Shown in pieces: positions 1,087-36,920 of a stretch of 52,991 nucleotides of DNA. Within the stretch, counting starts at the first letter, position 1. Each line of letters begins with the position of its first letter. The DNA lies in contig NZ_JAEKFT010000031.1 of the NCBI RefSeq assembly GCF_018524365.1, forward strand, positions 1 to 52,991. Reading direction: 5' to 3'. The notes beneath the pieces were generated by a model. The model was not told the DNA's origin. It saw only the letters and a program-made list of their open reading frames with translations, and ran no database searches. Position numbers and translations under genes: made by a program. The DNA is from Denitromonas iodatirespirans. Lineage in GTDB: Bacteria; Pseudomonadota; Gammaproteobacteria; Burkholderiales; Rhodocyclaceae.

Positions 1087-1102
1087 TGGCCCGGATTATG
1101 CG
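1087..1102 (+). promoter_or_regulatory. Sigma-54 (-24/-12) promoter of the glycine-rich protein operon
   Basis: TGGCCCGGATTATGCG matches the sigma-54 consensus TGGCACG-N4-TTGCW at nearly every defined position, with the obligatory GG (1088-1089) and GC (1100-1101) exactly 10 bases apart. Transcription should start near 1113. A ribosome site (AAAGGGAGA, 1146-1154) and the ATG at 1161 follow. A sigma-54 activator with an intact GAFTGA motif is encoded in the same locus, which supports the call. Confidence 0.75.
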
Positions 1103-1160
1103 TGAGTGCATTCCGGAGGCCGGCCATCGCCGGTGCCATTCATGGAAAGGGAGACACGTG

Positions 1161-3350
1161 ATGAGACTGACGCTGATATCAGCTGCTCTGGCACTCGCGT
1201 TCGGGATGTCCGGCGTAGCGCAGGCCAACCCGGTGGTCAATGGCGACCACGCCGGTCGAGGTGCCGGGGACGACACCGTCGAGCAGACCGCGACCGCCAC
1301 GTCCACGCAAGGCAACGGGCCAAACGCCAACGAATACTCCAGTGTGAAGGTCGGTTCAGGCAACAAGACCAAGACCGACGTCGACAACGACAAGAGTTCT
1401 GGCGATGCGCGCGACAACCATGGCGTAGCCACCGCCACCGACTACGGCAACGCCGCGGCCAACAACGGCGGCATGGCGACCAGCAACTTCGACAACGCGT
1501 TCAATACCAACAAAGCGATCGCGGTGAGCAAGCTCGAAGGCCTGGTGACCAACAACCGCATCCACCACCTCGGCAACTACGTGACCAACAGCGGCAACGC
1601 CAACGGCGCGGACGGCGGCTCGGCCGGTGACGGCGGAGCGGGGGCCGGCGGGGCCGGCTATGGCGGCAATGGGGCCGGCGGCTCGGGCGGCAACGGCGGC
1701 TCGGCGGGCAATGGCGGTTCGGGCGGCAGCGGCGGCTCGGGCGGCAGCGCCAACAACGGCAGCGCCTCGGCCGGTGATGTGCAAAACGGCAGCGCCACCA
1801 ACGGCAGTGCCTCAGCCGGCAACGGCGGTGACGGCGGCAACGCGCGTGACGCGATCGGTGCCAACGGTGGCAACAGCGGCATGGCGAATGCCACCGGCGG
1901 CAATGGCGGCACCGGCAACGGCGGTGACGGCTACGGCGGAAAAGGGGCCGGCGGCGACGGCGGCAAGGGTGCCGGGGGTGACGGCGGCCTGGCCCAGGGC
2001 GGTGCCGGCGGGGCTGGCGGCTCGGGCAGCGGCGGCGACTCCGGCTATGCCTATGGCGGCAGCGGTGGCAGCACCGGCAGCGCCAGCGGTGGCTCCGGTG
2101 GCAGCGGCGGTTCGGGTGGCAACGGCGGCAGCACCGGCAATGCCTCAGCCGGCAGTGGTGGCGATGGCGGCTACGGCGGCGATGGTGGCACCGGCACCGG
2201 CTTTGGCGGCAAGGGCTACGCCGACACCAACGCCGACGGCGGCACCTCAAGCGCCGCATCCTCTGGCGACGGCGGCAGCTCACACAACGATGGCGGCGCC
2301 GGTGGCGGCTCAATGGCCAGCGCGGGCGACACCACGGGCGGCGCCTCCGGCATGGGCGGCACCACCGGCAACCAGGGCAACGGCGGCGCCGGCAGCGAAG
2401 GCGGCACCGGTGGCAATGGCGCCGGCCCCAATGCCGGCAACAGCACCGGCGCTGGCGGCATGAGCGGTGATGCGACCGCATCGAGCGGTGCGGGCGCCGG
2501 CGGCAGCGGCACCGGCACGGGCGGCAACGGCAGTTCGGGCCCGGCCACCGCAACCGGTGGCTCGGCCGATACGGCCACCGCGATGGCCAACGGCGGCGCA
2601 GGCGCGGGTACCGGCGGCAACGGGGCGGCCGGCGCAGCCGGTGCGGACGGCGCAGCGGCGACCAACACCGCGGCAGCCGGCGCAGCCGGTGCAGTCGGTG
2701 CGGCCGGCGCAACCGCCAGCAACACCGGCGGTGCAGGCGCGACGGGCACCAGTGGTGACGGCGGCGCCGGCGCGGCAGCGGTCGGCGCAGGCGGCGGCAT
2801 CGCCTCCAGCGCGGGCGCCACGGGCACCGGCGGCGATGGTGCCGTGGGCAACGGCGGCGAAGGCAACGGTGCGGTCGGCAACGGCGGCATGGGCGGCATG
2901 GCCACCAACGCCAGTGGTGCCGGCGGTGCCGGTGGCATGGCCCAGAACACCGGCGGCAACGGCGGTGAAGGCGGCATGGCCAGCAATGGCAGCGCCACCA
3001 ACGGCAGCGCCGATTCGCAAGCCACCAACGGCAGCGCGACCGGCGGCCAGGGCGCGATGGCTGCGGCCGGCGCGCAAGGCGGCGACGGCGGCGACGGCGG
3101 CGTCGGCCAGGGCGGCACGGGCGGCATGGGCAACGGCGGTGTCGGCAACGGCGCAGCTGGCGGCACCGGCGGCGCGGGCGGTGCCGGCGGCACGCTGATG
3201 GTCGATGGCGGCGTGTTCGACATGTCCAACGCCATCAGCGGCAGCTTCACCAACGGGGCCGGGATCATGGTGTCGAGCCAGAACTCCGGCATGTCCTCAC
3301 TGGTTCAACAGAGCGTCAATGTTCAGGCCAACCTGAACGTCGGCCGCTGA
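1161..3350 (+). CDS. Exported glycine-rich GGX-repeat protein A (putative fibre or matrix subunit)
   Basis: The 729-residue product starts at the ATG at 1161; an in-frame ATG at 1086 lies inside the sigma-54 promoter and is rejected. Residues 1-22 form a signal peptide ending AQA. Residues 23 to about 150 are an Asn/Asp/Thr-rich domain with KAIAVSKLEGLVTNNRIHHL. Residues about 150-677 are almost entirely GG-X triplets (X = N, S, D, A, T, Y), with no cysteine seen and very few hydrophobics. Residues 678-729 are a distinct C-terminal cap containing SSQNSGMSSLVQQSVNVQ. Both ends are shared with the next gene, so these are tandem paralogues. The flanking C39 peptidase and FapF-like barrel suggest export to the cell surface as a functional-amyloid or polyglycine-helix fibre subunit. 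The repeat resembles mycobacterial PE-PGRS proteins only in composition. Function is inferred. Confidence 0.8.
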   Translation: MRLTLISAALALAFGMSGVAQANPVVNGDHAGRGAGDDTVEQTATATSTQGNGPNANEYSSVKVGSGNKTKTDVDNDKSSGDARDNHGVATATDYGNAAANNGGMATSNFDNAFNTNKAIAVSKLEGLVTNNRIHHLGNYVTNSGNANGADGGSAGDGGAGAGGAGYGGNGAGGSGGNGGSAGNGGSGGSGGSGGSANNGSASAGDVQNGSATNGSASAGNGGDGGNARDAIGANGGNSGMANATGGNGGTGNGGDGYGGKGAGGDGGKGAGGDGGLAQGGAGGAGGSGSGGDSGYAYGGSGGSTGSASGGSGGSGGSGGNGGSTGNASAGSGGDGGYGGDGGTGTGFGGKGYADTNADGGTSSAASSGDGGSSHNDGGAGGGSMASAGDTTGGASGMGGTTGNQGNGGAGSEGGTGGNGAGPNAGNSTGAGGMSGDATASSGAGAGGSGTGTGGNGSSGPATATGGSADTATAMANGGAGAGTGGNGAAGAAGADGAAATNTAAAGAAGAVGAAGATASNTGGAGATGTSGDGGAGAAAVGAGGGIASSAGATGTGGDGAVGNGGEGNGAVGNGGMGGMATNASGAGGAGGMAQNTGGNGGEGGMASNGSATNGSADSQATNGSATGGQGAMAAAGAQGGDGGDGGVGQGGTGGMGNGGVGNGAAGGTGGAGGAGGTLMVDGGVFDMSNAISGSFTNGAGIMVSSQNSGMSSLVQQSVNVQANLNVGR

Positions 3351-3371
3351 TCGCAGACAGGAGACAGCATC

Positions 3372-5564
3372 ATGAAACTCACCATCATGTCATCAGCCCT
3401 GGCGCTCGCGTTCGGCCTGTCGGCCCCGGTGTATGCCAACCCGGTGGTCAACGGCGAAAACGCGGGGCGCGGTGCCGGCAACGACACCGTGACCCAGAGC
3501 GCCACGGCCGACAACACGCAGGGCGACGGGCCCAATGCCAACGAGTTCTCCAGCGTCAAGGTGGACTCGTACAACAGGACCACCAGCGACGCCTACAACG
3601 ACAAGAGCACCGGCAACGACCGTGACAACCAGGGCACCGCAACCGCCCAGGACTACGGCAACGCGGCCGCCAACAACAACGGTGTGGCGACCAGCAACTT
3701 CTCCAACGCCTTCAATGTGAGCAAGGCGATTGCGATCAGCAAGTTGCACGGCACCGTCACCGACAACCGCATCCATGACATCGGCAACTACGCCTCCAAC
3801 GCAGGCAATGCCAACGGCGCGGCCGGCGGCAACGGCGGCAACGGCGGCGCCGGCTATGGCGGCAACGGCACCGGCGGCGACGGTTCGGGCGGCTACGGCG
3901 GCAGCGGTGGCGACGGCGGCAACGGCGGCAATGGGGGCAACGGCGGCTACGGCGGCAATGCCAGCAATGGCTCAGCCACGGCCGGCAACGCCACCAACGG
4001 CAGCGCCACCAATGGCGGCGCCAGCGCCGGCAACGGCGGCGACGGCGGTGCAGCCCGCGGTGCCCAGGGTGCCAACGGCGGCAACTCCGGCGATGCCACG
4101 GCCTATGGCGGCAACGGCGGCACCGGCAACGGTGGTGCGGGCACCGGCGGCGGCGGCTACGGCGGCGACGGTGGCTGGGCCTGGGGTGGCGACGGCGGCA
4201 CCGCCAACGGCGGCTACGGCGGCGCAGGCGGTGGCGGTGACGGCGGCAACTCCGGCGGCGCGACCGGCGGCAACGGCGGTTACACCGGCAGTGCGTCCGG
4301 CGGTGACGGCGGCAATGGCGGCTCAGGCGGCAACGGCGGCTCGACCGGCTATGCCACCGGCGGCGACGGCGGCAACGGCGGCGACGGCGGCTATGGCGGC
4401 GACGGCACCGGCAAAGGCGGCTGGTCCGGCTCGGGCACGCAGGCCTATGGCGGCAGTGCCACCGGCACCGATTCGGCCAGTGGCGGCGCCAGCCACAACG
4501 ATGGCGGCGCCGGCGGCGCAAGCGCAGCCAGTGCCGGCATGAGCACTGGCGGCACCTCCGGCGACGGCGGGCTGACCGGCAACCAGGGCAACGGTGGCAT
4601 GGCCAGCGGCGACGGTGCCACTGGCGGTGACGGTGGCGGTGGCAACACCGGCAACACCACCGGCGCCGGTGGCGCGGCCGGCGGATCGTCAGCGACCAGC
4701 ACGGCCAATGCCGGCGGCAATGCCGACGGTGCGGGTGGCGCAGGCACCAGCGGCGGCTCGGCCGCCAATGGCGGCTCCGCCAGCGGTGCCATGGCCAGTG
4801 CCACGGGCGGTACCGGCACTGGAACCGGTGCTGATGGTGGCGCCGGGGCCAATGCCGGCGCTGGGGCTGCGGCGACCAATACCGCCGGTGCAGGGGCTGC
4901 CGGGGCGCAAGGCGCCGCGGGGGCGGCCGGCACCAACATGGCGGGCAACGGCGCGGGCGGCACCAGCGGCATGGCCGGTGCGGGTGCGGCAGCGGCCGGC
5001 GGTGTCGGCGGCGATGCGGCCAGCGCAGGCGCCATGGCGCAAGGTGGTGCCGGTGCCGTGGGCAACGGTGGTGTCGGCAACGGCGCCGAGGGCAACGGGG
5101 GCGACGGCGGCATGGCCGACAACACCTCCGGTGACGGCGGTGCCGGCGGCATGGCATCGAACACCGGCGGCGCGGGCGGCAACGGTGGCGCAGCCACCAA
5201 CGGCAGCGCCACCAATGGCGGCGCCAGCTCGACCGCGAGCAACGGCAGTGCGACGGCCGGCAGCGGTGCGACCGGTGCGGTCGGTGCGACCGGCGGCCAG
5301 GGTGGCCAGGGCGGCACGGGCGAAGGTGGCCAGGGCGGCAATGGCGTGGCCGGCGTCGGCAACGGCGCGGTCGGTGGCGACGGTGGTGCCGGCGGTGCCG
5401 GCGGCATGGTCAGCGTGAGTGCCGGCACCTTCGACATGTCGAACGCCATCAGCAACAGCTTCACCAACGGGGCGGGGGTCGTGGTTTCGAGCCAGAACTC
5501 CGGCATGTCCTCACTGGTGCAGCAAAGTGTGAACGTGCAGGCCAATCTCAACGTAGGCCGATAA
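3372..5564 (+). CDS. Exported glycine-rich GGX-repeat protein B (paralogue of protein A)
   Basis: The 730-residue product starts 21 bases after protein A with a ribosome site CAGGAGAC. It has a signal peptide (residues 1-22, ending VYA), then the same mature start NPVVNG and an N-terminal domain close to that of protein A (KAIAISKLHGTVTDNRIHDI). A central GG-X triplet region follows, richer in Tyr and Trp (GGYGG, GGWAWGG) than in A. The C-terminal cap at residues 679-730 is nearly identical to that of A and ends VNVQANLNVGR. The order of repeats differs, so the copies have diverged in the middle while the ends were kept. This pattern suggests that the ends carry secretion, nucleation or docking signals. 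It is probably co-transcribed with protein A, and the two may be major and minor subunits of one fibre, as FapB and FapC are in Pseudomonas. Confidence 0.8.
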   Translation: MKLTIMSSALALAFGLSAPVYANPVVNGENAGRGAGNDTVTQSATADNTQGDGPNANEFSSVKVDSYNRTTSDAYNDKSTGNDRDNQGTATAQDYGNAAANNNGVATSNFSNAFNVSKAIAISKLHGTVTDNRIHDIGNYASNAGNANGAAGGNGGNGGAGYGGNGTGGDGSGGYGGSGGDGGNGGNGGNGGYGGNASNGSATAGNATNGSATNGGASAGNGGDGGAARGAQGANGGNSGDATAYGGNGGTGNGGAGTGGGGYGGDGGWAWGGDGGTANGGYGGAGGGGDGGNSGGATGGNGGYTGSASGGDGGNGGSGGNGGSTGYATGGDGGNGGDGGYGGDGTGKGGWSGSGTQAYGGSATGTDSASGGASHNDGGAGGASAASAGMSTGGTSGDGGLTGNQGNGGMASGDGATGGDGGGGNTGNTTGAGGAAGGSSATSTANAGGNADGAGGAGTSGGSAANGGSASGAMASATGGTGTGTGADGGAGANAGAGAAATNTAGAGAAGAQGAAGAAGTNMAGNGAGGTSGMAGAGAAAAGGVGGDAASAGAMAQGGAGAVGNGGVGNGAEGNGGDGGMADNTSGDGGAGGMASNTGGAGGNGGAATNGSATNGGASSTASNGSATAGSGATGAVGATGGQGGQGGTGEGGQGGNGVAGVGNGAVGGDGGAGGAGGMVSVSAGTFDMSNAISNSFTNGAGVVVSSQNSGMSSLVQQSVNVQANLNVGR

Positions 5565-5631
5565 CCGGGGCAGCCGGCCAGGGGCGGTATTGCTCCCCTG
5601 GCCGGCCTGCGTACGGAGAGGAGTGACGGCC

Positions 5632-6021
5632 ATGACTCGATCAATTCACGCCATGCCCCGCCTGCTGGCGGTGGTGTTGCCGGCCTTGCTGGCGATGTCG
5701 CCGGTGCAGGCCGAACCGGACGAGCCGGACGGCTTCCTGAGCCCGGCGCCGGTGATGGCGTTGCCACCGATGATGACGCTGGGCGCGGGGCCGGTCTCCG
5801 ATGCCGCGCTGGACGGGCGCCGCGGTGGCGCCGAGACGCTCAATGACATGGATCTGGAGGGCGTGGTTGCAGGCAACCATGCCTCGAATCTGGTGACGGG
5901 GCAGAACATCGTCACCGACGGGTCGCTGACCGGCAACGCCGGTTTCGCGACGGTGGTGCAGAACTCGGGCAACAACGTGCTGATCCAGAACGCCACCATC
6001 GTCAATATCCAGCTGGAGTGA
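5632..6021 (+). CDS. Small exported protein with a double-glycine processing site (Fap-like accessory)
   Basis: The 129-residue product starts at the ATG at 5632 behind GGAGAGGAG; an upstream in-frame ATG at 5590 would give an atypical leader. Residues 1-27 look like a signal peptide (ending VQA). Residues 55-66 read VSDAALDGRRGG and match the register of the bacteriocin leader consensus LSxxELxxIxGG. Cleavage after Gly66 would release a 63-residue C-terminal peptide containing VVQNSGNNVLIQNATIVNIQ. That peptide resembles the QNSG cap of the two glycine-rich proteins. The stop codon overlaps the start of the C39 peptidase gene by 4 bases, so the two are translationally coupled. I infer that it is a substrate of that peptidase and a nucleator, plug or minor subunit of the fibre. 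I do not recognise a named family. Confidence 0.75.
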   Translation: MTRSIHAMPRLLAVVLPALLAMSPVQAEPDEPDGFLSPAPVMALPPMMTLGAGPVSDAALDGRRGGAETLNDMDLEGVVAGNHASNLVTGQNIVTDGSLTGNAGFATVVQNSGNNVLIQNATIVNIQLE

Positions 6022-6710
6022 GCGCCATGCGACGCCATGCCATGCCGGGGATTTTTCTGGTGCTCAGCCTCGCGGCCGGAGGGCCGAGCGCGGGGCAGCT
6101 GAGTTTTCCGATCGATGTTGTCGGCCCCTACACCTTGCAGGTGACCAGCCTCAAGGAGGCGCGCCATCTGTCGACCCTGCGCCAGCAATACGACTTCAGC
6201 TGCGGCTCGGCGGCGCTGGCCACCTTGCTCACCCATCATTACGGGACGCGGGTCAGCGAGCAGGACGTGTTCGTGGCGATGTTCCGCAACGGCGACCAGG
6301 CCAAGATCCGGGCCGAGGGCTTTTCGCTGCTCGACATGAAGCGCTACCTGGCCTCGCGGGGCTACCAGGCCGATGGCTTCGAGGCGCCGCTGGAGGCGCT
6401 CTCCGCGGTCGGCATCCCGGCCATCACGCTGGTCAACGAGAACGGCTACAACCATTTCGTGGTGGTCAAGGGCGTGCGGGACGGCCGTGTGCTGCTGGGC
6501 GATCCGGCCTTCGGCACGCGGGCCATGCCGCGCGAACAATTCGAGCGCATCGCGCAGGAGAAGATCCTGTTCGTGATTCGCTCCCATCAAGACATTGCAC
6601 GTTTCAATCGGGCGGAGGACTGGCGGGTGGCGCCGCGTGCGCCGATCGAAATGGGCCTGCGCGCACCGCTCGACATGGTGCGCTTCGTGCGCGCCGCGAG
6701 CGATTTCTGA
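6018..6710 (+). CDS. fapD: FapD-like C39-family cysteine peptidase, exported
   Basis: The 230-residue product starts with GTG at 6018, overlapping the previous stop (GTGA); an ATG three codons later is possible. An N-terminal hydrophobic segment (residues 10-23) indicates export. The peptidase domain begins with TLRQQYDFSCGSAALATLL, where Cys62 is the predicted nucleophile and Gln56/57 the oxyanion residue. His146 (NENGYNHFVVVKG) and Asp162 (LLGDPAFG) complete the triad. FSLLDMKRYL is typical of C39 domains. It is a stand-alone peptidase with no ABC-transporter part, like FapD of the Pseudomonas Fap amyloid system. C39 enzymes cleave after double glycine, and suitable motifs occur in the genes before and after it. 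The symbol is given by similarity of type and context; orthology is not tested. Confidence 0.8.
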   Translation: MSAMRRHAMPGIFLVLSLAAGGPSAGQLSFPIDVVGPYTLQVTSLKEARHLSTLRQQYDFSCGSAALATLLTHHYGTRVSEQDVFVAMFRNGDQAKIRAEGFSLLDMKRYLASRGYQADGFEAPLEALSAVGIPAITLVNENGYNHFVVVKGVRDGRVLLGDPAFGTRAMPREQFERIAQEKILFVIRSHQDIARFNRAEDWRVAPRAPIEMGLRAPLDMVRFVRAASDF

Positions 6711-6780
6711 GCGCCGAGTCGACACATGCATGCTGTCCCGCGCCGTGGCTCGCAGCCATGACCGCGGGGGGAGAGGGAAA

Positions 6781-7638
6781 ATGATGGCCAACTGGGCAGA
6801 CAGGCCGTGGCCGGGGGCGCTGGTGGCGCTCCTGGCCTGCACGGCGGCACCCGCGGCGGCGCAGGACGAGGCGCGGCTGACCGCGTTCTCGGCACCGCCG
6901 CAATGGCGCGTGCTGAGTGCGCAGCGGCTCAGCGAGATACGCGGGGGCTTCGAGATGCCGGACCTGCAGCTGCGCCTGTCCTTCGGGCTCGAGCAGTCGG
7001 TGCTGGTCAATGGCGAGCTGGTGGCGCGCACGGTGCTCAACATCGAGCGCCTGCGCCAGTCGGTGGGGGATCGCGTCAGCGCGGTGCGCAATACCGTGCT
7101 CGATTCGACCGCCGGGCTCAATGCCCAGATCCAGGCCCAGGTCGCCGCGCAGTTGCAGGCGGTGGGCCTGCGCACCACCACCATCAACACCGTGAGCACG
7201 CCCCAGGCGCAGACCGCGGTGGCGAATGCGGCGGCGCAGGCGGTCGCCATGCCTGCGGCGGCGAGCCCTGCCGCACCGGCAAGCCCTCCGGCCGCGGCGG
7301 CGAGTTCGCCCGCGCCGGTGGCGAGCGGCGCATCGGGCGCTGCCGCGGGATCGACGGGCAGCGGCACGGTCGGTTCGGTGCAGGTGGTGACGCCGGCGCT
7401 GGCGGTGCAGGCCACAGCGCCGGTGACGGTGGTGCAAAGCGGGCCGGGCAACGTGGTGAGCGGGGCCAGCGTGGTCGGCAACGATGCGATGAACACCATC
7501 ATCCAGAACACGCTCGACGACCAGCGCATCCAGGTGCTGACCGAGGTAAGCGCGTCGGCCAACAGCCTGCAGGTGCTGCGGGCCATGAACATGGCCGCGA
7601 CCATCCGCGAGGGGGTGATCAACTCGCTGCGCCGGTGA
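6781..7638 (+). CDS. Exported protein with a double-glycine site (putative FapE-like component)
   Basis: The 285-residue product starts at the ATG at 6781 after GGGGGGAGAGGGAAA; upstream in-frame starts lack a signal peptide. Residues 1-27 are a signal peptide ending AAA. Residues 45-56 read LSAQRLSEIRGG, a close match to the C39 leader consensus LSxxELxxIxGG. The mature part begins FEMPDLQLRLSFG and contains LVNGELVARTVLNI. An Ala/Ser/Pro-rich linker spans about residues 153-200. The C-terminus has GNVVSGASVVGN, NTIIQNTL and a final Arg-Arg. It is the last gene of the forward operon and is followed by a strong terminator. Its place in the operon resembles that of FapE in fap operons, but sequence homology to FapE is not established here. 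Confidence 0.65.
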   Translation: MMANWADRPWPGALVALLACTAAPAAAQDEARLTAFSAPPQWRVLSAQRLSEIRGGFEMPDLQLRLSFGLEQSVLVNGELVARTVLNIERLRQSVGDRVSAVRNTVLDSTAGLNAQIQAQVAAQLQAVGLRTTTINTVSTPQAQTAVANAAAQAVAMPAAASPAAPASPPAAAASSPAPVASGASGAAAGSTGSGTVGSVQVVTPALAVQATAPVTVVQSGPGNVVSGASVVGNDAMNTIIQNTLDDQRIQVLTEVSASANSLQVLRAMNMAATIREGVINSLRR

Positions 7639-7670
7639 GCCGGCGCCGGCCTGCGACAGGGCTTCCCCAA

Positions 7671-7701
7671 GCAAACGACCCGCGCCAGGCGGGTCGTTTG
7701 C
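7671..7701. terminator. Bidirectional terminator between the two arms of the Fap-like locus
   Basis: GCAAACGACCCGC (7671-7683) pairs perfectly with GCGGGTCGTTTGC (7689-7701) around a 5-base loop. It lies between the convergent ends of the 6781-7638 gene and the barrel gene 7729-9015, so it can serve both. The stem is AT-rich at its base rather than followed by a long T-run. Confidence 0.8.
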
Positions 7702-7728
7702 GTTGACGGCCTGAGGCCGGCCGGTGGT

Positions 7729-9015
7729 TCAGAGGGTGAAGGGCATGCGCAGGGTGAGCGTCAGGTCGGGGGTGTCGCGGGTCACGCCGACGCCGAGCGA
7801 GACGTTCACGGCGCGGTCGGGCGCCAGCCGGTAGGCGTAGCCGAACATCAGGGTGCCGAGCTGCACCCGCACGCCGAGCGGGTCGTCGCGGCCATTGATG
7901 CGGGTCACGCCGACCGAGGCGTGGTCGTAGCCGACGCTGAACGAGGAGCGGTCGTTGAGCGCCAGCCCCATGCCGAAGTTGAAGCCGAAGACGCCGCCGG
8001 GCTGGACCTTGTCGAGGTTGGTGACGGTGATGTTGCCCTGCCCGTCGTCCTGGCGCAGCTTGAGGTTGGAGCGCTCGAAACTGTACTGGTAGTTGAGGCC
8101 GCCGAAGAACACCACCGGGTCGGACGGGAAGAGGAAGGTCAGGCCCGGTTGTATCGAGTAGAAGCCCGAGCCGGTGGGCAGGTCGCGCAAGAGGCCGAGG
8201 CCCTGGAAGCCGGGCACGATGAGCGTGGTGGTGTCGAACTGGTCGGAGCCGGTGCGGGTCTTGAAGCGCAGCGAGGCGACATAGATCGGCTCGTTCGCCA
8301 CCGTCGGGTTCAGCTGGTAGCGGGCGGTGAATTCGACGTCGCCGATGTCGCTGCCGGTGGTATTGAAGACCTGGTCGTTGCTGCTCGGGGTGGCGATCGG
8401 GCGGCTGATCGAGTCGTCGGACCGATATACCCAGGGGATCTTGGCTTCGACCTCCAGGCGGTTGGTCAGCCCGGTGCGGGCGGTGAGTGCTGCGGTCCAG
8501 GTATTGCGTTTGACCTCGCGCACGTCGATCAGGCCGATGGTCAGCGCCGGGATCACGGTGTAGCCGACCAGCGCCACCCGGTTGGTCGAAGCGTAGGAGT
8601 ATTGCAGCGAGGGCTCGAGGATGAGCGTGCCGGGCTGGGTGAGGATGCCGGGTTGGTCGAAGATCTGGGCCACCGGCGGAGAATCCGCCGGCGTCTTTTC
8701 CGGCGGGCGCTGGCCCACCGGTTGCGGCGGGTTGGCGGCGGCCGGCTCGCCCGGGCCGGCGGCGCGCAGCGTGCGCAGGCGCTCCAGGCCGACCTCGCGG
8801 CGCAGGTCGTCGAGCCGGGATTGTTCCTGCTCCATCTGGCTGCGCAGGTCGTCCAGCCGTCGGGTCTGCTCGATCAGCATCTGGCGGAGCTGGTCCATCG
8901 TCGGCGCCTGGGCCGGGGTGTCCTGTGCGGCCGCAGTGCCTGCGACGGTACAGCTTAGCAGCGCCGCCATGGCCGGCGGGCAGGCCCGCCGGATGCGCGA
9001 TTGCGTGTTCTTCAT
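7729..9015 (-). CDS. FapF-like outer-membrane beta-barrel with coiled-coil N-terminus
   Basis: The 428-residue product starts at the ATG at 9015 behind GGAGGC. A signal peptide covers residues 1 to about 30 (ending TAAA). Residues 38-84 form a heptad-like coiled coil (LRQMLIEQTRRLDDLRSQ, then EQSRLDDLRREV). A Pro-rich linker spans about 87-116. From GILTQPGTLILEPSLQYSYA (residue 123) onward there are alternating amphipathic strands typical of an outer-membrane barrel, ending TLRMPFTL. The same layout of coiled coil, flexible linker and C-terminal barrel is known for FapF, the trimeric pore that secretes Fap amyloid subunits. I infer that it is the secretion pore for the glycine-rich proteins on the other side of the terminator. 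Alternative: a general Phenol_MetA_deg-type barrel without a secretion role. Confidence 0.7.
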   Translation of the reverse strand: MKNTQSRIRRACPPAMAALLSCTVAGTAAAQDTPAQAPTMDQLRQMLIEQTRRLDDLRSQMEQEQSRLDDLRREVGLERLRTLRAAGPGEPAAANPPQPVGQRPPEKTPADSPPVAQIFDQPGILTQPGTLILEPSLQYSYASTNRVALVGYTVIPALTIGLIDVREVKRNTWTAALTARTGLTNRLEVEAKIPWVYRSDDSISRPIATPSSNDQVFNTTGSDIGDVEFTARYQLNPTVANEPIYVASLRFKTRTGSDQFDTTTLIVPGFQGLGLLRDLPTGSGFYSIQPGLTFLFPSDPVVFFGGLNYQYSFERSNLKLRQDDGQGNITVTNLDKVQPGGVFGFNFGMGLALNDRSSFSVGYDHASVGVTRINGRDDPLGVRVQLGTLMFGYAYRLAPDRAVNVSLGVGVTRDTPDLTLTLRMPFTL

Positions 9016-9051
9016 GATGCCTCCCTCTCCTGTGTGTGCTTCTCCTGCCGG

Positions 9052-10398
<1,347 letters not shown>

Positions 10399-10484
10399 AC
10401 TGTCGTCTCCCGTTTTCGGGATGGCATTGGATGCGCCGACAGTTCTTGTTGTTGGTGGCGCGTGCTGCGTTGCCGACCCGCGGA

Positions 10485-11279
10485 TCAATGTCGCGCGGTG
10501 TCGGACACTGGGGTCAGGGTGCGGGCCAGGATCAGCGGCGGTGTCTCGAGGGCGTGAACCGGTCGGGGCAATTGCGCGATCCTGGCCTTGGGGAGATTCA
10601 TTTCCACATCGACCCGCCGGTTCAGCCGGCGTCCGGCGGCCGTGGCGTTGCTTGCCACGAAGCAGTCGACGCACTGGTGGGTCGAAATCTTGTCGCGCGA
10701 TACGCCGGCGGCGACGAAGGCCGAGGCCACCGTTTGCGCGCGGGCCTCGGCCAGTGCCCGGTTGGAACTGGGTTTGCCGAGGGCGTCGGTGCGTCCGCGG
10801 ACGACCACCTGACGCGCCTCATGGGCGATCGGGAGCAATTCGTTCACCGCCTGGCGGCCCTTCGGCCCGAGTCCGGAGCGGCTGCTGGCGAAAGGCACCA
10901 TACGGCTGATCGAGGCGAGTTCATGGTCCAGCCGCAAGGCGGAGGGCGCCGCTGCCGGGGGCGGTGCGGCCACCACGGCCGCCGGTGTTCCGGTCGGCAC
11001 ACTGTGCGCCTGCGGCGGCGGGGCGCCGAGGGCGACGGCGGCCGGGATGTCGAGGCCGCCTGAGGGGGCCTGTGCCAGCACGATGCGTGGAGCATGCCGG
11101 GTGGCAAGCACCGCGCGCGTCGGCAATCGATACGTTGTGCCCGTCTGCGGATCGAAAAATTCCCCCGCCAGCGGGGGTGGTGGCTGCAGGTCGGCGCGCG
11201 GCTGTGCCGCGGTCAACGAGCAGCCGGCCAAGGCGATGGCGGACAGCCATGCCACCAGGTTTCCGGCGCCTTGCCCCAT
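10485..11279 (-). CDS. OmpA-family lipoprotein (peptidoglycan-binding domain)
   Basis: The 264-residue product begins with a lipoprotein signal: hydrophobic [10 protein letters not shown] with the lipid-attachment Cys at residue 20. A Pro/Ala-rich middle (about 90-115) leads to a C-terminal OmpA-like domain (about 120-230) with [30 protein letters not shown] and [17 protein letters not shown], the usual peptidoglycan-contact region. A CVDC motif lies at [11 protein letters not shown] noticed no other CxxC in this locus. It is the first gene of the minus-strand group, 86 bases before the activator. It probably anchors the secretion apparatus to peptidoglycan; OmpA-domain partners are common in envelope export systems, but none is part of the standard fapA-F set. 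Confidence 0.8.
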
Positions 11280-11498: not shown

Positions 11499-11696
11499 GA
11501 GTGCACAAGCCGTTGATATTTAAACTGGTTTGTTAAGATCTGTTTCGCCAGGACAGCTATGAGACCCCGGAGTGTAAGGAATGCCGACATGGGTATTGAG
11601 GCGCCCGGCGGGGGATAAATGGCCGCCGCGCACGACCGGGTGGCCGCGGCGGCCTTGCGTCTTGGGGGCTCCGCCCGGGATTGCTATGCTCCGTCT

Positions 11697-12434
11697 ATGG
11701 CCACCATCTTCATCAGCTACCGTCGGGACGACACACCGGGCTTTGCGGGGCGCCTGGAAGATGATCTGTCCGAGCGCTTCGGCGATGCGCAGGTGTTTCG
11801 CGATCGCGAAATCCCCGCCGGTAGCGACTTTGCCCGTCACCTGGAAGACCAGCTGCGCGACGCGGCGGTGGTGCTGGTGGTGATCGGCCGGCACTGGCTC
11901 GATGTGCGCGATGCGGAGGGGCGCTTGCGCCTCGATTCACCCACCGACTGGGTGCGTCGCGAGGTGGAGGCGGCCTTGGCCGGGACGACGCCGATCGTGC
12001 CGGTGCTGGTCGGCGGTGCCGCCATGCCCTGGCCGGACCAGCTGCCCGACAGTCTGGCGCCGCTGGCCGGGCGGCAGGCCATCAGTCTGTCGGATCAGCA
12101 CTGGGGGGACGATATCGAGACCTTGTCGGTGCAACTGTGCCGGCTGTCGCCCGAGCTGGCCGAGCATTTCCAGGCGCGGCATGTGGACCACCGGCCGGAC
12201 CTGCTCAAGGTCTTGCGCGAGCGTCTGGACGAGGCGGGCCGGGCGGCTGGTGGGGCTGGCGGTGGCGGCGGGTTTGGCCGCTGGGTGGCCGGTCGCCTGG
12301 GCAAGTTGTTCGGTGCCGTGGTGACGCTGGCGGTGCTCTACATCCTGGTGCGCGCCCTCGGCGGCAGCCAGCTCAACCGCATGCTGGACCGGGTGATCGC
12401 CACCACGGTCGAGCAGGTCAGGGCCGTGTTCTAG
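11697..12434 (+). CDS. Membrane-anchored TIR-domain protein
   Basis: The 245-residue product starts at the ATG at 11697; an in-frame ATG 26 codons upstream adds only low-complexity sequence. Residues 1 to about 135 are a bacterial TIR domain: MATIFISYRRDD (box 1), FRDREIPAGSDFARHLE, LLVVIG-like strand VVLVVIGRHWL, and WVRREVEAAL, whose Glu89 occupies the position of the catalytic glutamate in NAD-cleaving TIR domains. A Gly-rich linker (GAGGGGGFG) is followed by one membrane segment near residues 200-222 (LFGAVVTLAVLYILVRAL) and a short tail. No partner gene of a known TIR defence system is adjacent. It may be a stand-alone NAD-hydrolase effector or a scaffold. Its stop codon shares a CTAG with the convergent gene. 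Confidence 0.75.
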   Translation: MATIFISYRRDDTPGFAGRLEDDLSERFGDAQVFRDREIPAGSDFARHLEDQLRDAAVVLVVIGRHWLDVRDAEGRLRLDSPTDWVRREVEAALAGTTPIVPVLVGGAAMPWPDQLPDSLAPLAGRQAISLSDQHWGDDIETLSVQLCRLSPELAEHFQARHVDHRPDLLKVLRERLDEAGRAAGGAGGGGGFGRWVAGRLGKLFGAVVTLAVLYILVRALGGSQLNRMLDRVIATTVEQVRAVF

Positions 12435-31243: not shown

Positions 31244-32989
31244 TCATGAATGGTTGCGCAGCGGATGGGTGCGGTTGTCGCGGGCGCGGTCGAGCAGCAT
31301 GCGCGCCGCCTCGTCCGGCACGCCGAGCTGGGCCAGTGCACCGGCGGCCAGCTGCAGGCTGGATTCGAGGGTTTCGGGGATCACCACATTGGCGCCCGCC
31401 TTGCGCAACGCCAGTGCATGCTTTTCGTCGCGCGCGCGCGCCAGCACATGGATGTCGGGCGCGATCTTGCGCAGGCCGTGCACGGCATGGATGGCCGGGG
31501 CGGTCTGGTCCATGGTCAGGATCACGGCGCCGGCGCGGTCCAGGTGCAGCCGGCGCAGCATCTCCGGATTGCTGGCATCGCCGAACACCACCGGCAGGCC
31601 GCGCGCCCGGTAGCGGGCCACCAGTGCCGGGTCGCTCTCGATGGCGCAGTAGGCCACGCCCAGGTCGGTCAGCAGCTCGCCCACCAGCTGGCCGACCCGG
31701 CCGTAGCCGGCCAAGATGACATGGTTGTGCAAGGTGTCGACATCGCTCACCTGGGTGGCATCGGCCCGCTGGCCGCTGCGCCGGTCGATGGCGTTGCCGA
31801 CGGCCTGGCCGATGCGGGCGATCAGCGGCGTGGCCAGCATGCTCAGCCCGACCACCAGCAGCATGAACTGCGCCACGTCGCGCGGCAGCAGCTCGTAGCT
31901 CAGGGCCATGCCGATGACGATGAAGGCGAACTCCCCGCCCGCGCCGAGCAGCAGCCCGCCCTCGACCGCGCGGCCGGTCGACAGGCCGAAGCCGCGGAAC
32001 AGCACGGCGATGACCGCGCCCTTGATCAGCACCAGGCCGATCACCGACAGCGGCAGCCACAGCGGCCGGCTGATCAGCTCCGCCAGGTCGATGCCCATGC
32101 CCACTGACATGAAGAACAAGCCCATCAGCAAGCCCTTGAACGGCTCGATGGTGACTTCGACCGCGTGGCGGAATTCGGTCTCGGCAATGATCAGCCCGGC
32201 CAGCAGCGCACCCATCGCCATCGACAGCCCGGCCGCCCAGGTCAGCGCCGCCACGCCGAGCGAGACCAGCAGCGTCAGCGCCATGAAGGTGTCGGACTGC
32301 TGGTTGGCCGCCAGATGGTGGAACACCGGCTGCACCAGGCGTCGGCCGACCAGATAGATGGCGCCGATGGTGACTACGCCTTTCATGGCGGCCTGCCCCA
32401 TCTGCAGCGCAAAGCTGCCGTCGCCATGCTGGCCGAGCAGGCCGACCAGCACCAGCAGCGGCACCACCGCCAGATCCTGGAACAGCAGCACCGAGAAGCT
32501 CGCCTGGCCGAGCGGCGTGCCGAGGTCGCGGCGCAGGGTGAGCAGCTGCATCACCACCGCGGTGGAAGAGAAAGCCAGCACCAGGCCAAGGATCACCGAG
32601 GCTTCGGCCGGGTTGCCGAAGGCATGGGCCAGCCCGCCGATGATCACCGCCGACAGGCCCACCTGCAGCGCGCCCACGCCAAACACCCAGCGCCGCAGCG
32701 CCCACAGGCGATCCACCGACATTTCCAGGCCGATCATGAACATCAGGAAGATGACGCCCAGTTCGGCAAACACCGACACGTCTTCGACACGGGCGAAGGT
32801 CAGGTGCGAGAGCCAGGGCCATTGCTCGACCAGCCGGCCCAGGCCGTAGGGGCCGACCAGCGTGCCCATCGCCAGAAACCCCAGCACCGGGTTGATGCTG
32901 CGCCGCTGAAGCAGCGGGATCAGCACGCCCGACAGGCACAAAAAAAGAATCAGCTCGCGCAGATGCGGCAAGCCTTCGTGGGCAGACAT
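31244..32989 (-). CDS. CPA2-family monovalent cation:proton antiporter (KefB/C-like)
   Basis: The 581-residue product starts at the ATG at 32989. It has about 12-13 membrane segments, including LGVIFLMFMIGLEMSVDRLW and FSSTAVVMQLL, typical of Kef-type antiporters. A cytoplasmic TrkA-N/RCK domain follows (HVILAGYGRVGQLVGELLTD, then FGDASNPEML). Kef systems release potassium in exchange for protons, often gated by glutathione adducts or nucleotides bound to the RCK domain. No KefF/G-type ancillary gene is adjacent. It is divergent from prsT. Confidence 0.85.
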   Translation of the reverse strand: MSAHEGLPHLRELILFLCLSGVLIPLLQRRSINPVLGFLAMGTLVGPYGLGRLVEQWPWLSHLTFARVEDVSVFAELGVIFLMFMIGLEMSVDRLWALRRWVFGVGALQVGLSAVIIGGLAHAFGNPAEASVILGLVLAFSSTAVVMQLLTLRRDLGTPLGQASFSVLLFQDLAVVPLLVLVGLLGQHGDGSFALQMGQAAMKGVVTIGAIYLVGRRLVQPVFHHLAANQQSDTFMALTLLVSLGVAALTWAAGLSMAMGALLAGLIIAETEFRHAVEVTIEPFKGLLMGLFFMSVGMGIDLAELISRPLWLPLSVIGLVLIKGAVIAVLFRGFGLSTGRAVEGGLLLGAGGEFAFIVIGMALSYELLPRDVAQFMLLVVGLSMLATPLIARIGQAVGNAIDRRSGQRADATQVSDVDTLHNHVILAGYGRVGQLVGELLTDLGVAYCAIESDPALVARYRARGLPVVFGDASNPEMLRRLHLDRAGAVILTMDQTAPAIHAVHGLRKIAPDIHVLARARDEKHALALRKAGANVVIPETLESSLQLAAGALAQLGVPDEAARMLLDRARDNRTHPLRNHS

Positions 32990-33182
32990 GAGTGGACGGG
33001 CTCCTCGACGCTCTGCCGGCAGTCTACCGGAAATCCCCGCCCCGACTGGGCCTCGGCGATGCCGTCCGGCGCGCTCCCGCAATGGATCTGTCCCGCTGCC
33101 AAAAGATGTCACAGTGTTCCCGCGAGCCGCCCCTCTATACTCGCGCAATGACACATTCTTCCGACCACACTCTGGGGGCCGT

Positions 33183-35990
33183 ATGACAAACGCCTCTTGC
33201 GCGGTGCGCCTGCGTCGCGCGTTCGCCATCCTGGCCTTCGCCGTTTCCCTGCCTGCGCTGGCCGACGCCGGCAAGGCAGCCGCCTTCTACGAAGACGGTC
33301 TGTCGCGCTTCGAGAAGGGCGACATGGCCGGTGCCGTCATCCAGCTCAAGAACGCGCTGCAGCAGAACCCCAAGATGCTGTCCGCCCATCTGCTGCTCGG
33401 CCGGGCCCTGCTCGAGCAGACCGAGTTGCCGGCGGCCGAGGCGGCCTTCAACGAAGCACTCAAACTGGGCGTCAGTCCGACGGAAGTCGCCGTGCCGCGC
33501 GGGCAGCTGCTGATGGCGCTGGGGCGCACCAAAGACCTGCTGCGCGACATCCAACCCGACGGGCTGAGTGGTGCCGCCCGCATCGAAGTGCTGACGCTGC
33601 GCGCCTCGGCGCTGGCCGACGAAGGCGATGGCAAAGCGGCCAGCCGTGCCTTCGAGGCGGCCATCGCGGCCGATCCGTCTGCGCTGCGCCCCTACTTGTC
33701 TTGGGTGCCCTTCCTGCTCCAGCGCGGAGAAATGACCGCCGCGCGCGATGCGGTTGCACGAGCGGTCGCGCTGGCGCCGAAGGACGCCCGGGCGTGGAAC
33801 CTCAGCGCTTCGTTGCGTCATGTCCAGGGCGACCTGGACGGCGCCCTGGCCGACTACAGCCGCGCGCTGCAGCTGGAACCGGCGCATATCGACGCCCGGG
33901 TAGGACGCGCGTCCTTGTTGGTGGACGTCAAGCGGGACGCCGAAGCCGCCAAGGACCTCGACTATCTGGCCGAGCATGCCCGCTCGGAACCCCGCTCGGC
34001 CTATCTGCGGGCGGTGCTGGCCGGGCGGCGCGGCGATGCCGACACGGTGCAGAAATCGCTCAGCGAAGTGGCGCGTATCGTCGATACGCTGCCGCCCGAA
34101 TACGTCAATGCCCGCGAACAGTTGTTGATGTTGGGCGCGCTGTCGCATCACGGCCTGGGGGCCCGCGAGAAAGCCAAGGGCCTGCTCGACGGCCTGATCT
34201 CGCGCTACCCGAGAAATCTGGGCGCGCGCAAGTTGCTCGCCAGTATTTACATCGACGAGGGCGACAGCGCACGGACGCTGACCACCGTCGAGCCGGTGCT
34301 GAGGGTGCGCCCGGACGACCCCCAGGCACTGTTGCTGATGGGGCGGGCGCATCTGGTGAGCAAGCGCTACTCGCGCGCGACCCACTACCTCGAACGGGCG
34401 GCCGAGGCCATGCAGGGCGATGCCCAGGTGCAGGCCGCGCTGGGCTACAGCCTGCTTGGCGGCGGCCAGGCCGACGCCGGCATCGCCAGCCTCGAAAAGG
34501 CGTTCGCCACCAATCCGCGCGACGGCGCGGTGGGCATGGTGCTGACCTCGCTGTACATGCGCCGGGGCGAGGCCGACAAGGCCATGGCCGTGGCCGAGGC
34601 GCTGGTCAAGCAGCGCCCGGACGATTTGTCGGCGCTCAATCTGCTCGGTGCGATCCGTGCCGCCAATGGCGATGTCGCCGGCGCCCGTGCTGCCTACGAA
34701 CAGGTCTTGCAGCGCGATCCGGCCTTCGTGCCGGCCTCGCTCAATCTGGCGCGGGTGGATGCGGAAGAAGGCAAGCCCGACATGGCGCGTCGGCGTCTGA
34801 TGGCCGTGGTCGACATCCGCAAGGACGACGAGCGGGTGATGTACGAACTCGGCTTGCTGGCGCGACGCCAGGGTGACCTGGCCAGCGCCATCGACTGGCT
34901 GCGCAAGGCCGCCGCCAAACAGCCGGACGACCCCCGGGCGGCGCTGGCGCTGGTCGAGTTGCTGTCCGCCACGCGCCAGCCGGCCGTGGCGCTGACGGCC
35001 GCCAAGGAAGTCGGGCTGCGCCACCCCGGCAATTTGCGGGTGCAGGCGGTGCTCGGCCAGGCCTACTTGGCCGCCGGCGACGCCACGGCTGCCCGCCAGA
35101 CCTTTCGGGATATGACGCGTTTGGCCGAGTTTGACCCCGACGCACAGATCCGCATCGGTCAGCTGCAACTGGAGGCGGGCTATCCCGACGATGCCGCCTA
35201 CAACATCCAGAAAGCACTGACCGCCGTGAAGGACTACCCGCCGGCGCTGTCGCTGGCGGTCGATGTGGCGCTGGCCCGCGCCGATCTCGCGGCCGCGCGA
35301 GCGGCGTTGTCCGACTTGCGCAAGGTCGAGCCGGAGGGCAGCGCCGTGGCCACCCACGAGGCGGCGATCGCCTTGGCGAGCGGCGATGTGACTCGCGCCG
35401 TCGAGGCCTCGCGGCGCGTCTATCAGCGTTGGCCGGGCTCGCAAAGCGCGCTCGCGCTGGCGCGGGCGCAATTCGTCGGCAAGGATCCGGGCGGCGCGAT
35501 CGAGGTCTTGCAAAATGAGCTCAAGCGGGCGCCCAGCGGCGACGTGCGCCGTGCCCTGGCGGAGTTGCTCATGCAGCGGGGCAGCTGGCGCGAGGCGCGC
35601 CGCCACTACGAAGTCCTGCTGGCCGGCAACGGCGCCAACATCGACTTGCTCAACAACTATGCGCTGGTGCTGCTGGCACTCAAGGATCCGGCGGCCATCA
35701 CCCAGGCAGAAAAGGCCCGCGCGCTGGCACCGCAGGATCCGCTGGTGACCGACACCCTTGGCTGGATCAAGCTGCAGACCGGCGATACCGAGGGCGCGCT
35801 CGGCCTGTTGCGCGACGCGCGATTGCGCGCACCGCAGAATCCAGAGATCCGCTACCACCTCGCCGAAGCCCTGCACCGGAGCGGGCGCACGGCCGAAGCC
35901 AAACAGGAGCTGGACGCCGCGCTGGACGGAAATGTCGCGTTCGCCGGCGCCGACGCGGCGCGGCAGTTGCGCGGCAAGATCGGCCGCTGA
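33183..35990 (+). CDS. prsT: PEP-CTERM system TPR-repeat protein PrsT
   Basis: The 935-residue product starts at the ATG at 33183. Residues 1 to about 27 form a signal peptide ending ALADA; I see no lipobox cysteine. The rest is a long series of tetratricopeptide repeats, for example AAAFYEDGLSRFEKGDMAGA and LLNNYALVLLALKDPAAITQ. Length and start fit the PrsT family that accompanies exosortase/PEP-CTERM systems and exopolysaccharide loci. In Zoogloea-like floc formers prsT lies near sigma-54-controlled PEP-CTERM genes, as here. It probably acts in the periplasm in assembly or export of the extracellular polysaccharide or its proteins. Confidence 0.85.
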   Translation: MTNASCAVRLRRAFAILAFAVSLPALADAGKAAAFYEDGLSRFEKGDMAGAVIQLKNALQQNPKMLSAHLLLGRALLEQTELPAAEAAFNEALKLGVSPTEVAVPRGQLLMALGRTKDLLRDIQPDGLSGAARIEVLTLRASALADEGDGKAASRAFEAAIAADPSALRPYLSWVPFLLQRGEMTAARDAVARAVALAPKDARAWNLSASLRHVQGDLDGALADYSRALQLEPAHIDARVGRASLLVDVKRDAEAAKDLDYLAEHARSEPRSAYLRAVLAGRRGDADTVQKSLSEVARIVDTLPPEYVNAREQLLMLGALSHHGLGAREKAKGLLDGLISRYPRNLGARKLLASIYIDEGDSARTLTTVEPVLRVRPDDPQALLLMGRAHLVSKRYSRATHYLERAAEAMQGDAQVQAALGYSLLGGGQADAGIASLEKAFATNPRDGAVGMVLTSLYMRRGEADKAMAVAEALVKQRPDDLSALNLLGAIRAANGDVAGARAAYEQVLQRDPAFVPASLNLARVDAEEGKPDMARRRLMAVVDIRKDDERVMYELGLLARRQGDLASAIDWLRKAAAKQPDDPRAALALVELLSATRQPAVALTAAKEVGLRHPGNLRVQAVLGQAYLAAGDATAARQTFRDMTRLAEFDPDAQIRIGQLQLEAGYPDDAAYNIQKALTAVKDYPPALSLAVDVALARADLAAARAALSDLRKVEPEGSAVATHEAAIALASGDVTRAVEASRRVYQRWPGSQSALALARAQFVGKDPGGAIEVLQNELKRAPSGDVRRALAELLMQRGSWREARRHYEVLLAGNGANIDLLNNYALVLLALKDPAAITQAEKARALAPQDPLVTDTLGWIKLQTGDTEGALGLLRDARLRAPQNPEIRYHLAEALHRSGRTAEAKQELDAALDGNVAFAGADAARQLRGKIGR

Positions 35991-36073: not shown

Positions 36074-36089
36074 TGGCATGTGGATTGCT
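36074..36089 (+). promoter_or_regulatory. Sigma-54 promoter of the second PEP-CTERM gene
   Basis: TGGCATGTGGATTGCT differs from TGGCACG-N4-TTGCW at one defined position, with GG (36075-36076) and GC (36087-36088) correctly spaced. It is the best sigma-54 site in the window. Transcription should start near 36100, about 30 bases before the ATG. RpoN and the PrsK/PrsR system are known to control PEP-CTERM genes in Zoogloea. Confidence 0.85.
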
Positions 36090-36128
36090 TTGAAAGCTTC
36101 GACCACAGTATCCAGCAGGGAGAATGAG

Positions 36129-36920
36129 ATGAAGAAAACGATCTGGAGGCAGGCGCTGATCGCCGCAGGGCTGATGATCGCCATGCCGGCGATGGCTGCA
36201 ACGGCATGGACTTTTGCCGGGGGCAGCAACAGCAGCAACACCTACGGGAACGTGCGCACCTATTCGAGCGACGGCGTACAGGTGCAGGCCACGGCCTGGG
36301 CCAACACCGGCGGCTCGTCCAACACCTTGCTGGAAAACGCCTATCTCGGCTCCTATACCGGCGGCCTTGGCGTTGGCAACCGCGACGCCGACAACGGGCA
36401 AGACCCGGGAGAAGGCACCAATCCGGAACACGCCATCGACAACGACGATCGTTACGACTCGGTGCTCCTGTCCTTCAGCCAGGCCGTGAATCTGACCGCG
36501 GTCCAGAACGGCTGGTACAGCAACGACTCCGATCTGTCCGTGCTGGCCTATATCGGCGCCGGCACCCCGACCCTGGCCGGCACCACCTACGCCGACATGG
36601 TGTCGGGCGGCTGGGTGAACATCGCCAGCCTGTCGAACCCGGGCACTGGTCTGGCCTCGACCGGCTCGTCGGTGTATTCCTCCTACTGGCTGGTGGGCGC
36701 CTTCAACCCGACCTTCGACAGCGGCAACGCAAACTGGGCGATGGGCAAGGACTACGCCAAGCTCTATGCCGTGAAGGGCTCGATCTGCACCGCATCGGGT
36801 GGCGCCAATGGGGGTGTATGTGGTGGTACGCCGGGCACCGGTGTGCCGGAACCTGGTTCCTTGGCGCTGGCAGGTCTGGGCCTGCTCGGTGTCATCGGAC
36901 TGCGTCGCCGTCGTAAGTAA
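36129..36920 (+). CDS. PEP-CTERM sorting-domain protein downstream of prsT
   Basis: The 263-residue product starts at MKKTIWRQALIAAGLMIAMP (ATG at 36129, after CAGGGAGAATGAG). The signal peptide ends near residue 24. The mature part, rich in Ser, Asn and Gly, has TAWTFAGGSNSSNTYGN and an exosortase-dependent surface protein appearance (LLSFSQAVNLTAVQNGWYS). The C-terminus shows VPEPGSLALAGLGLLGVIGL followed by RRRRK, a textbook PEP-CTERM signal. Its position next to prsT and its sigma-54 promoter match the floc-forming PEP-CTERM gene type known from Zoogloea. It is probably anchored to or released with the exopolysaccharide. Confidence 0.9.
   Translation: MKKTIWRQALIAAGLMIAMPAMAATAWTFAGGSNSSNTYGNVRTYSSDGVQVQATAWANTGGSSNTLLENAYLGSYTGGLGVGNRDADNGQDPGEGTNPEHAIDNDDRYDSVLLSFSQAVNLTAVQNGWYSNDSDLSVLAYIGAGTPTLAGTTYADMVSGGWVNIASLSNPGTGLASTGSSVYSSYWLVGAFNPTFDSGNANWAMGKDYAKLYAVKGSICTASGGANGGVCGGTPGTGVPEPGSLALAGLGLLGVIGLRRRRK

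Follow-up and report, generated by a model that had tools for sequence, protein, structure and literature searches.

The genomic stretch studied here (hereafter the window) comprises 52,991 nucleotides (nt) of Denitromonas iodatirespirans, contig NZ_JAEKFT010000031.1, and its positions 1161-11279 hold eight genes, five on the plus strand followed by three convergent genes on the minus strand. It is probable that this locus represents another branch, beside canonical Fap, of Fap-type export, in which two glycine-triplet proteins (GGX1 and GGX2) would be the cargo, a C39 peptidase would cut the exported partner proteins P3 and P5, and a FapF-like barrel would form the pore. The evidence consists of profile and fold matches to FapD and FapF, the regular occurrence of a subunit gene beside P3, and an L-x3-RGG box in P3 and P5. 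As the same module was found again in other genera, the set is beyond chance. An earlier note on this DNA had described these eight genes within 10 kb as a Fap-like fibre locus with its own regulator and an OmpA lipoprotein as peptidoglycan anchor. All eight are present as described, and the relation to Fap and the glycine-triplet cargo hold up below, whereas the anchor and a regulator special to the variant do not. The features are as follows (export signals of the window proteins were judged by eye; aa, amino acids).

1087-1102, plus strand: sigma-54-type -24/-12 promoter-like site reading TGGCCCGGATTATGCG, 74 nt 5' of the GGX1 start codon
1161-3350, plus strand: GGX1, exported glycine-triplet subunit of 729 aa with conserved ends and a putative Sec signal
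3153-3347, plus strand: conserved C-terminal domain of GGX1 (subunit alignment and genome search)
3372-5564, plus strand: GGX2, second glycine-triplet subunit, 730 aa
5367-5561, plus strand: conserved C-terminal domain of GGX2, ..AGxxVSSQNSGMSSLVQQSVNVQANL (alignment and genome search)
5632-6021, plus strand: P3, small exported protein with a double-glycine-like box and a subunit-related C-terminus (start codon inferred)
5821-5829, plus strand: RGG of P3, residues 64-66, candidate C39 recognition or cleavage site
6018-6710, plus strand: stand-alone exported C39 peptidase, FapD-like
6781-7638, plus strand: P5, FapE-like exported protein (start codon inferred)
6940-6948, plus strand: RGG of P5 within VLSAQRLSEIRGG-F, double-glycine-leader-like
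7729-9015, minus strand: FapF-like outer-membrane barrel with a predicted periplasmic coiled coil (helix 40-85)
9052-10434, minus strand: sigma-54 activator with VpsR domain, AAA+ domain and Fis-type helix-turn-helix (true start near 10,400, uncertain)
10485-11279, minus strand: OmpA-family lipoprotein

The start of GGX1, placed at 1086/1087 by the earlier note, more likely lies at the ATG at 1161, because this codon opens a clear signal peptide and positions 1087-1102 form the -24/-12 site.

Relation of the peptidase and barrel to FapD and FapF

The C39 protein matched the Pfam C39 family (expectation value, E, 3.3e-20) and the NCBIfam C39_FapD model (E 8e-38), and the barrel matched the NCBIfam FapF model over residues 15-426 of 428 (E 5.5e-44). 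Both proteins also matched profiles of the Fil system (FilB, E 9e-36; FilC, E 2.5e-18). Cys62, His146, Asp162 and Gln56 of the peptidase, which we take to be the catalytic Cys/His/Asp and the oxyanion Gln, were invariant in eight aligned sequences. A structure prediction of the barrel, called for by the earlier note, was made from 32 sequences (predicted local distance difference test, pLDDT, 79.8), and FapF crystal structures were its 18 best matches in the PDB (top E 1.4e-20; template modeling score 0.80 by target and 0.56 by query). Helix 40-85 of the model agreed with the coiled coil expected in the periplasm. A PTG motif, which is known from FapF and common to the COG4313 channels (PMC6173800), was near invariant in the 32 sequences. 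FapF combines a coiled coil with a 12-strand-type barrel, and the features of it seen here were the full-length profile match, the predicted coiled coil and the top fold match.

For comparison, a canonical-type set of 14 fap loci was assembled (L016, L127-L131 and L141-L148), in which FapF exceeded the NCBI cut-off in five (L127, L128, L141, L142 and L143) and stayed below it in eight, L016 having come from the barrel search; a FapB/FapC-like repeat pattern was present in 12 of the 14, not in L143 and L147. A tree of C39 proteins with 113 rows, midpoint-rooted and with a long-branch warning for the canonical-type group and L139, placed the 15 rows from these 14 loci on one side of a branch with support 100/99, with L139, a very long branch, on the other side and the window protein outside the canonical FapD group. 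This grouping is the sole claim taken from the tree, where L133 and L140 were labelled 'N-rich' though Gly-rich (0.23 and 0.27) and the Asn-rich L047 was placed in the GGX group. At L139 itself, the C39 and barrel genes lie side by side (6838-8652) with no recognisable subunits, and its genome (G118) carries in addition a fap locus whose FapF exceeds the cut-off.

Judged by these profiles, the C39 protein is remotely related to FapD and the barrel remotely related to FapF. Their placement in these families by the earlier note stands at the level of profile, and for the barrel also of fold. The outcome that the note had named as a refutation, both proteins lying outside FapF and FapD, did not clearly arise, although both scores fall under the equivalog cut-offs (130 bits against 330 for FapD; 151 against 700 for FapF) and the peptidase falls outside the canonical group.

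Glycine-triplet subunits and recurrence of the module

When named bacterial genomes were scanned with the C39 alignment, at least 594 stretches matched; relatives were encoded in 588 of these, and the best 80 were used. Together with the window and seven loci found by the barrel they make up 88 loci, the 87 others having been chosen regardless of subunits; some are cut by contig ends, so that counts are lower bounds, and the window and the members of L010-L015 that served to build the profiles necessarily match them. Record titles among the best 80 included Cupriavidus, Paraburkholderia, Massilia, Variovorax, Dechloromonas, Lysobacter and Pseudoxanthomonas. Near the C39 gene of the 88 loci, P3 was detected in 86, P5 in 87, the barrel in 84, the activator in 54 and the OmpA gene in three. 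A gene-neighbourhood survey had been proposed in the earlier note, and here 85 of the 88 loci were found to have a subunit gene on the strand of P3 that ends no more than 1500 nt upstream of it; the three others were the canonical-type L016, L038 (a short record starting at C39) and L087 (short, with no intact frame).

The same association was seen in whole genomes. Among 61 related genomes, the barrel was detected in eight and P3 and the subunit C-terminus in seven each, the latter two in the same genomes, all with the barrel; the eighth barrel genome (G044) holds the canonical-type locus L016, and a search of the 54 relatives that have no P3 detected no subunit C-terminus. In a class sample of 369 genomes, C39 was present in 45 (E <= 1e-20), P3 in 13, all within these 45, and the subunit C-terminus in nine, eight of them within the 45. 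One genome (G091) carries both a canonical-type fap locus (L147) and this module (L138) on one contig.

Other arrangements were observed as well. Three Massilia loci (L070, L086 and L095) hold two tandem modules, each with activator, glycine-rich frame, P3, C39, P5 and barrel. At three places in G703 (L178-L180), exported proteins of some 177 residues occur in pairs and contain 'EGALSP' stretches; one member of each pair has a subunit-like C-terminus, and neither C39 nor barrel was seen there. In L016, a GC-poor fap-type locus, a PAS/GGDEF-like gene (by eye) lies at 6963-7889 between the FapE-like and FapF-like genes.

The middle regions of GGX1 and GGX2 consist of 43% and 44% Gly, respectively, with a three-residue period (z at lag 3 of 7.6 and 6.0 relative to shuffled sequences, with depletion at lags 1 and 4), and contain 4 and 2 basic residues, 27 and 25 acidic residues and zero Cys. 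The two proteins are identical at 105 of 150 N-terminal, 43 of 50 C-terminal and 355 of 529 middle residues, and neither matched any Pfam or NCBIfam family searched at E < 1. The conserved, Gln/Asn-rich C-terminus follows the pattern AGIxVxSQNSGxxSLVQQSVNVQANL, by which a subunit gene was recognised in 75 loci (86 frames), with 10 further loci added by eye. Frames were mechanical open reading frames from the first start codon, so that lengths (105-1105 aa) and whole-frame Gly fractions (0.15-0.38) of the 86 include false N-termini. Triplet periodicity exceeded z = 3 in 75 of the 81 frames measured, five being too short, and a Gly-rich middle (whole-frame Gly at least 0.15) was found in 84 of the 85 subunit loci, L047 alone being Asn-rich. 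GGX1 and GGX2 belong to a family of subunits whose ends are conserved and whose low-complexity middle varies. In twelve further stretches fetched as deeper relatives (L184 covered in part), the subunits of L182, L183, L186 and L187 were Asn-rich (17-28% Asn) with similar ends, that of L181 was Gly-rich, and those of L188 and L189 were shorter and neither Gly- nor Asn-rich; the low-complexity middle accordingly looks exchangeable within a fixed scaffold. An AlphaFold2 model of GGX2 (16-row alignment) had a mean pLDDT of 36.6, so that neither a polyglycine-II nor a beta fold can be claimed.

Comparison of the GGX subunits with FapB/FapC gave no NCBIfam match and an hhalign probability of 0.5 (only seven repeat units gathered), and homology of the subunit C-terminus to the FapB/FapC repeats was dropped as unsupported. 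Glycine-triplet proteins stand in place of the usual amyloid subunits, as the earlier note had supposed. A reading that keeps a real but minor chance is that of an ordinary Fap amyloid with a diverged FapC, in which the Asn/Gln-rich ends would form a cross-beta fibre and the GGX stretch a long linker, and which would be compatible with the export steps proposed below. It would accord with the Gln/Asn-rich C-termini, with the similar ends of the Asn-rich subunits (L182, L183, L186, L187 and L047) and with the account in PMC3792158 that canonical FapC varies mainly in linker length, whereas the missing FapB/FapC match, the triplet periodicity of the Gly-rich middles and the separate group of the canonical-type C39 proteins argue against it.

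The L-x3-RGG box and the proposed export mechanism

P5 resembled the N-terminus of FapE (hhalign E 5.9e-6, probability 85, 57 columns), and its relative in L135 matched the FapE model at 1.2e-4 over the first 52 model positions. The C-terminus of P3 matched both the subunit C-termini (E 1.4e-5, probability 80) and the C-terminus of P5 (E 2.9e-7, probability 93), which suggests a common assembly module; direct hhalign of P5 against the subunit C-termini gave no match (probability 0.7). FapB, FapC and FapE occur in the same fibres (PMC6173800), and P3 is possibly a minor or starter subunit.

The L-x3-RGG box was found in 89 of 90 P5 proteins (the remaining one with M for L) and 77 of 89 P3 proteins, compared with none of the 86 subunits despite their high Gly, none of 91 C39 proteins, one of 59 activators and 23 of 927 background frames (called mechanically, with Gly below 15%, and unproven as genes). 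In P5 the pattern after the signal peptide is [VLIAM]-x4-L-x2-[mostly hydrophobic]-R-G-G-[mostly F], and in P3 it is [mostly hydrophobic]-x4-L-x3-R-G-G. The -12 residue, a position left free in the search pattern, was I, L, V, M, F or A in 89 of 89 P5 and 81 of 88 P3 proteins, and P5 has a hydrophobic -4 residue in 74 of 89 and L at -7. The double-glycine leaders of C39 substrates have a consensus of the LSxxELxxIxGG type, which the box resembles in its GG and, in P5, in the hydrophobic -12 and -4 residues and the L at -7. Because they carry this leader-like box, P3 and P5 are candidate FapD-type substrates, and we propose that L-x3-RGG is what a FapD-type peptidase recognises. A related box, ..[LM]xx[ILM]RG[RK][FY], occurs in canonical-type FapE of 11 of the 14 loci (a doubtful 147-aa frame of L148 that also fits was left out), and a loose box was found in the FapA-position proteins of eight of them, the total being 14 of 650 frames of those loci, these included.

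According to PMC5557850, the target of FapD is unknown and the Fap proteins are said to be without canonical C39 sequences; the active-site Cys of FapD is required for FapC secretion, GG/GA motifs in FapE and FapF are pointed out, and N-terminal peptides of FapE were missing by mass spectrometry. The RGG box opens a direct and cheap test of the FapD substrate, here and in canonical FapE. Rather unlikely, though worth weighing, is the idea that the box is no cleavage site but serves in docking or targeting, either to the FapF-like pore or to a C39 protein that acts as a chaperone. The RGR or RGK of canonical-type FapE at this place, the box in the pore linker of some loci and the existence of catalytically inactive C39-like domains (PMC5557850) would fit this idea, whereas the invariance of the presumed catalytic residues in the eight aligned sequences, the need for the FapD Cys in FapC secretion and the absent N-terminal FapE peptides speak against it.

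The export mechanism proposed for the locus would begin with the VpsR-domain sigma-54 activator, which may switch on the promoter site observed 5' of the subunit genes. GGX1, GGX2, P3, P5 and the C39 peptidase would enter the periplasm by Sec, as their putative signal peptides indicate, and the peptidase would there cut P3 and P5 after the L-x3-R-G-G box and, in some species, presumably also the pore linker between coiled coil and barrel. The box-less glycine-triplet subunits, unfolded, would then pass through the FapF-like pore to the surface, as co-occurrence and pore family suggest, where their Gln/Asn-rich C-termini, with P3 as a minor or starter subunit, may assemble an extracellular fibre or mat.

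Several observations weigh against this proposal, besides the scores under the equivalog cut-offs. The likeness of P5 to FapE is N-terminal only and includes the signal peptide, and the window P5 matched no FapE model at E < 1. The -4 residue of P3 is hydrophobic in only 37 of 88 proteins, unlike in classical double-glycine leaders, and the canonical-type FapE box has RGR/RGK, not GG. In the window barrel the box is degenerate (LRAAG), and the full box occurs in only 16 of 87 barrels, in some between coil and barrel; the looser L-x3-RG was found in 57 of 87, partly elsewhere, and as it is also common in C39 proteins (25 of 91) and background frames (156 of 927), the barrel is the weakest of the three box sites. 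In the window, the barrel and the subunits lie on opposite strands and so do not form one transcription unit, and this is also the case in 37 of 84 loci. Furthermore, the exception in the class sample, the fragmented assembly G703, encodes 177-residue proteins with the subunit C-terminus on small contigs where no module was seen.

The opposite strand of the barrel could also be taken to mean that the glycine-triplet proteins are mere neighbours exported by an unrelated route. This is very improbable, given that 85 of 88 loci, selected through C39 or the barrel, have a subunit gene close upstream of P3 and that no subunit C-terminus was found in the 54 relatives without P3. Even less credible is a COG4313-type uptake channel in place of an exporter: the channel 4rl8 is the next-best fold match (E 5.6e-11) and shares the PTG motif, but FapF matches far better, the long N-terminal helix fits a coiled coil, and C39, FapE-like and subunit genes accompany the barrel.

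A broader view, tentative and on balance doubtful, is that fibres of a non-amyloid kind, silk- or polyglycine-II-like, are exported by a sister system of Fap that is widespread, with FapD/FapE/FapF as a general exporter of low-complexity chains and RGG cleavage by C39 in up to three partners (P3, the FapE-like protein and the pore linker) as a licensing step. Work on Fap treats it as an amyloid system. If the machine does also export glycine-triplet chains, its pore can do without an amyloid cargo, and bacteria would have a new class of silk-like matrix proteins. Such export would span Burkholderiales-, Rhodocyclales- and Lysobacteraceae-type genomes, which we take to be the groups of the record titles.

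Regulation, neighbouring genes and comparison with known systems

A sigma-54-type site 5' of the first subunit gene was detected in 48 of 67 loci, compared with 5.9 expected from dinucleotide shuffles. The criteria, based on the -24/-12 consensus of sigma-54, were an invariant GG and GC, at least 9 of 12 consensus bases and a position within 300 nt of the first subunit gene; eight of 75 loci were excluded because the sequence upstream was incomplete or contained N, and start codons were set by a simple pattern. In 46 of the 48 loci the site lay 73-132 nt 5' of the presumed start, and in two canonical-type loci inspected such a site lay at 68 nt. The N-terminus of the activator matched the VpsR domain (E 4.3e-13), while its top NCBIfam match was a PEP-CTERM response regulator, below the model cut-off. 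The earlier note had given the system its own regulator; an activator is indeed present, but it is not special to this variant, as a homologue occurs in the fetched stretch of 11 of the 14 canonical-type fap loci. A cyclic di-GMP (c-di-GMP) input to the activator is a guess, for which work on VpsR is one ground. The other is BerB, an RpoN-dependent activator that binds c-di-GMP (PMC9684580).

The OmpA gene adjoins only three of the 88 loci, all of the genus of the window, and was not seen at a fourth locus of that genus (L012), with a profile built from those three loci; it is not part of the core, and its role as the peptidoglycan anchor of the system was dropped. The window also encodes a TIR-domain protein (11619-12434, plus strand; Pfam TIR_2, 1.3e-16) with a C-terminal hydrophobic segment by eye, and a similar frame adjoins the locus in L010 and L011 (by eye). 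A PEP-CTERM protein (36078-36920, plus strand; 5.6e-7) lies near a 1000-aa TPR protein (32988-35990, plus strand).

Among known systems, the locus shares with Fap (fapABCDEF of Pseudomonas and others) the C39 protein, the FapF-fold coiled-coil barrel, the FapE-like N-terminus with a related box, and a sigma-54 activator and site nearby. It differs in having two large glycine-triplet subunits and P3 in place of FapB/FapC, in the barrel on the other strand and in a C39 protein outside the canonical-type FapD group. The FapA model matched none of the eight window proteins; in fap operons, fapA is often deleted (PMC3792158). On these sequence features the locus is not classed as a Fap member, because FapB/FapC repeats and grouping with canonical FapD were both looked for and not found; we infer that it would work like Fap with a different cargo.

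The Fil 'putative pilus' system of Acinetobacter is similar in that the C39 and barrel proteins match the FilB and FilC profiles, but the matches are below the cut-offs (475 and 630 bits), and the other Fil models matched none of the proteins searched. The PE_PGRS proteins of mycobacteria have similarly long Gly-Gly-X repeats, whereas GGX1 and GGX2, with no Pfam match at E < 1, have no PE domain and instead combine a predicted Sec signal with a FapF-like pore. The COG4313 channels (4rl8) have the barrel fold and the PTG motif in common with the window barrel but are a weaker fold match than FapF, and associated C39 peptidases are not reported for them in the relevant section of PMC6173800. Another section of PMC6173800 notes colocalised homologues of fapD and fapF outside fap operons in five further phyla and describes no cargo for them, whereas here a cargo family is defined. 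FapD-FapF pairs as such had therefore been noticed before, whereas full-text searches of open-licence papers listed no account of a glycine-triplet cargo, P3, the RGG box or their combination. The L-x3-RGG box in P3 and P5 is new here.

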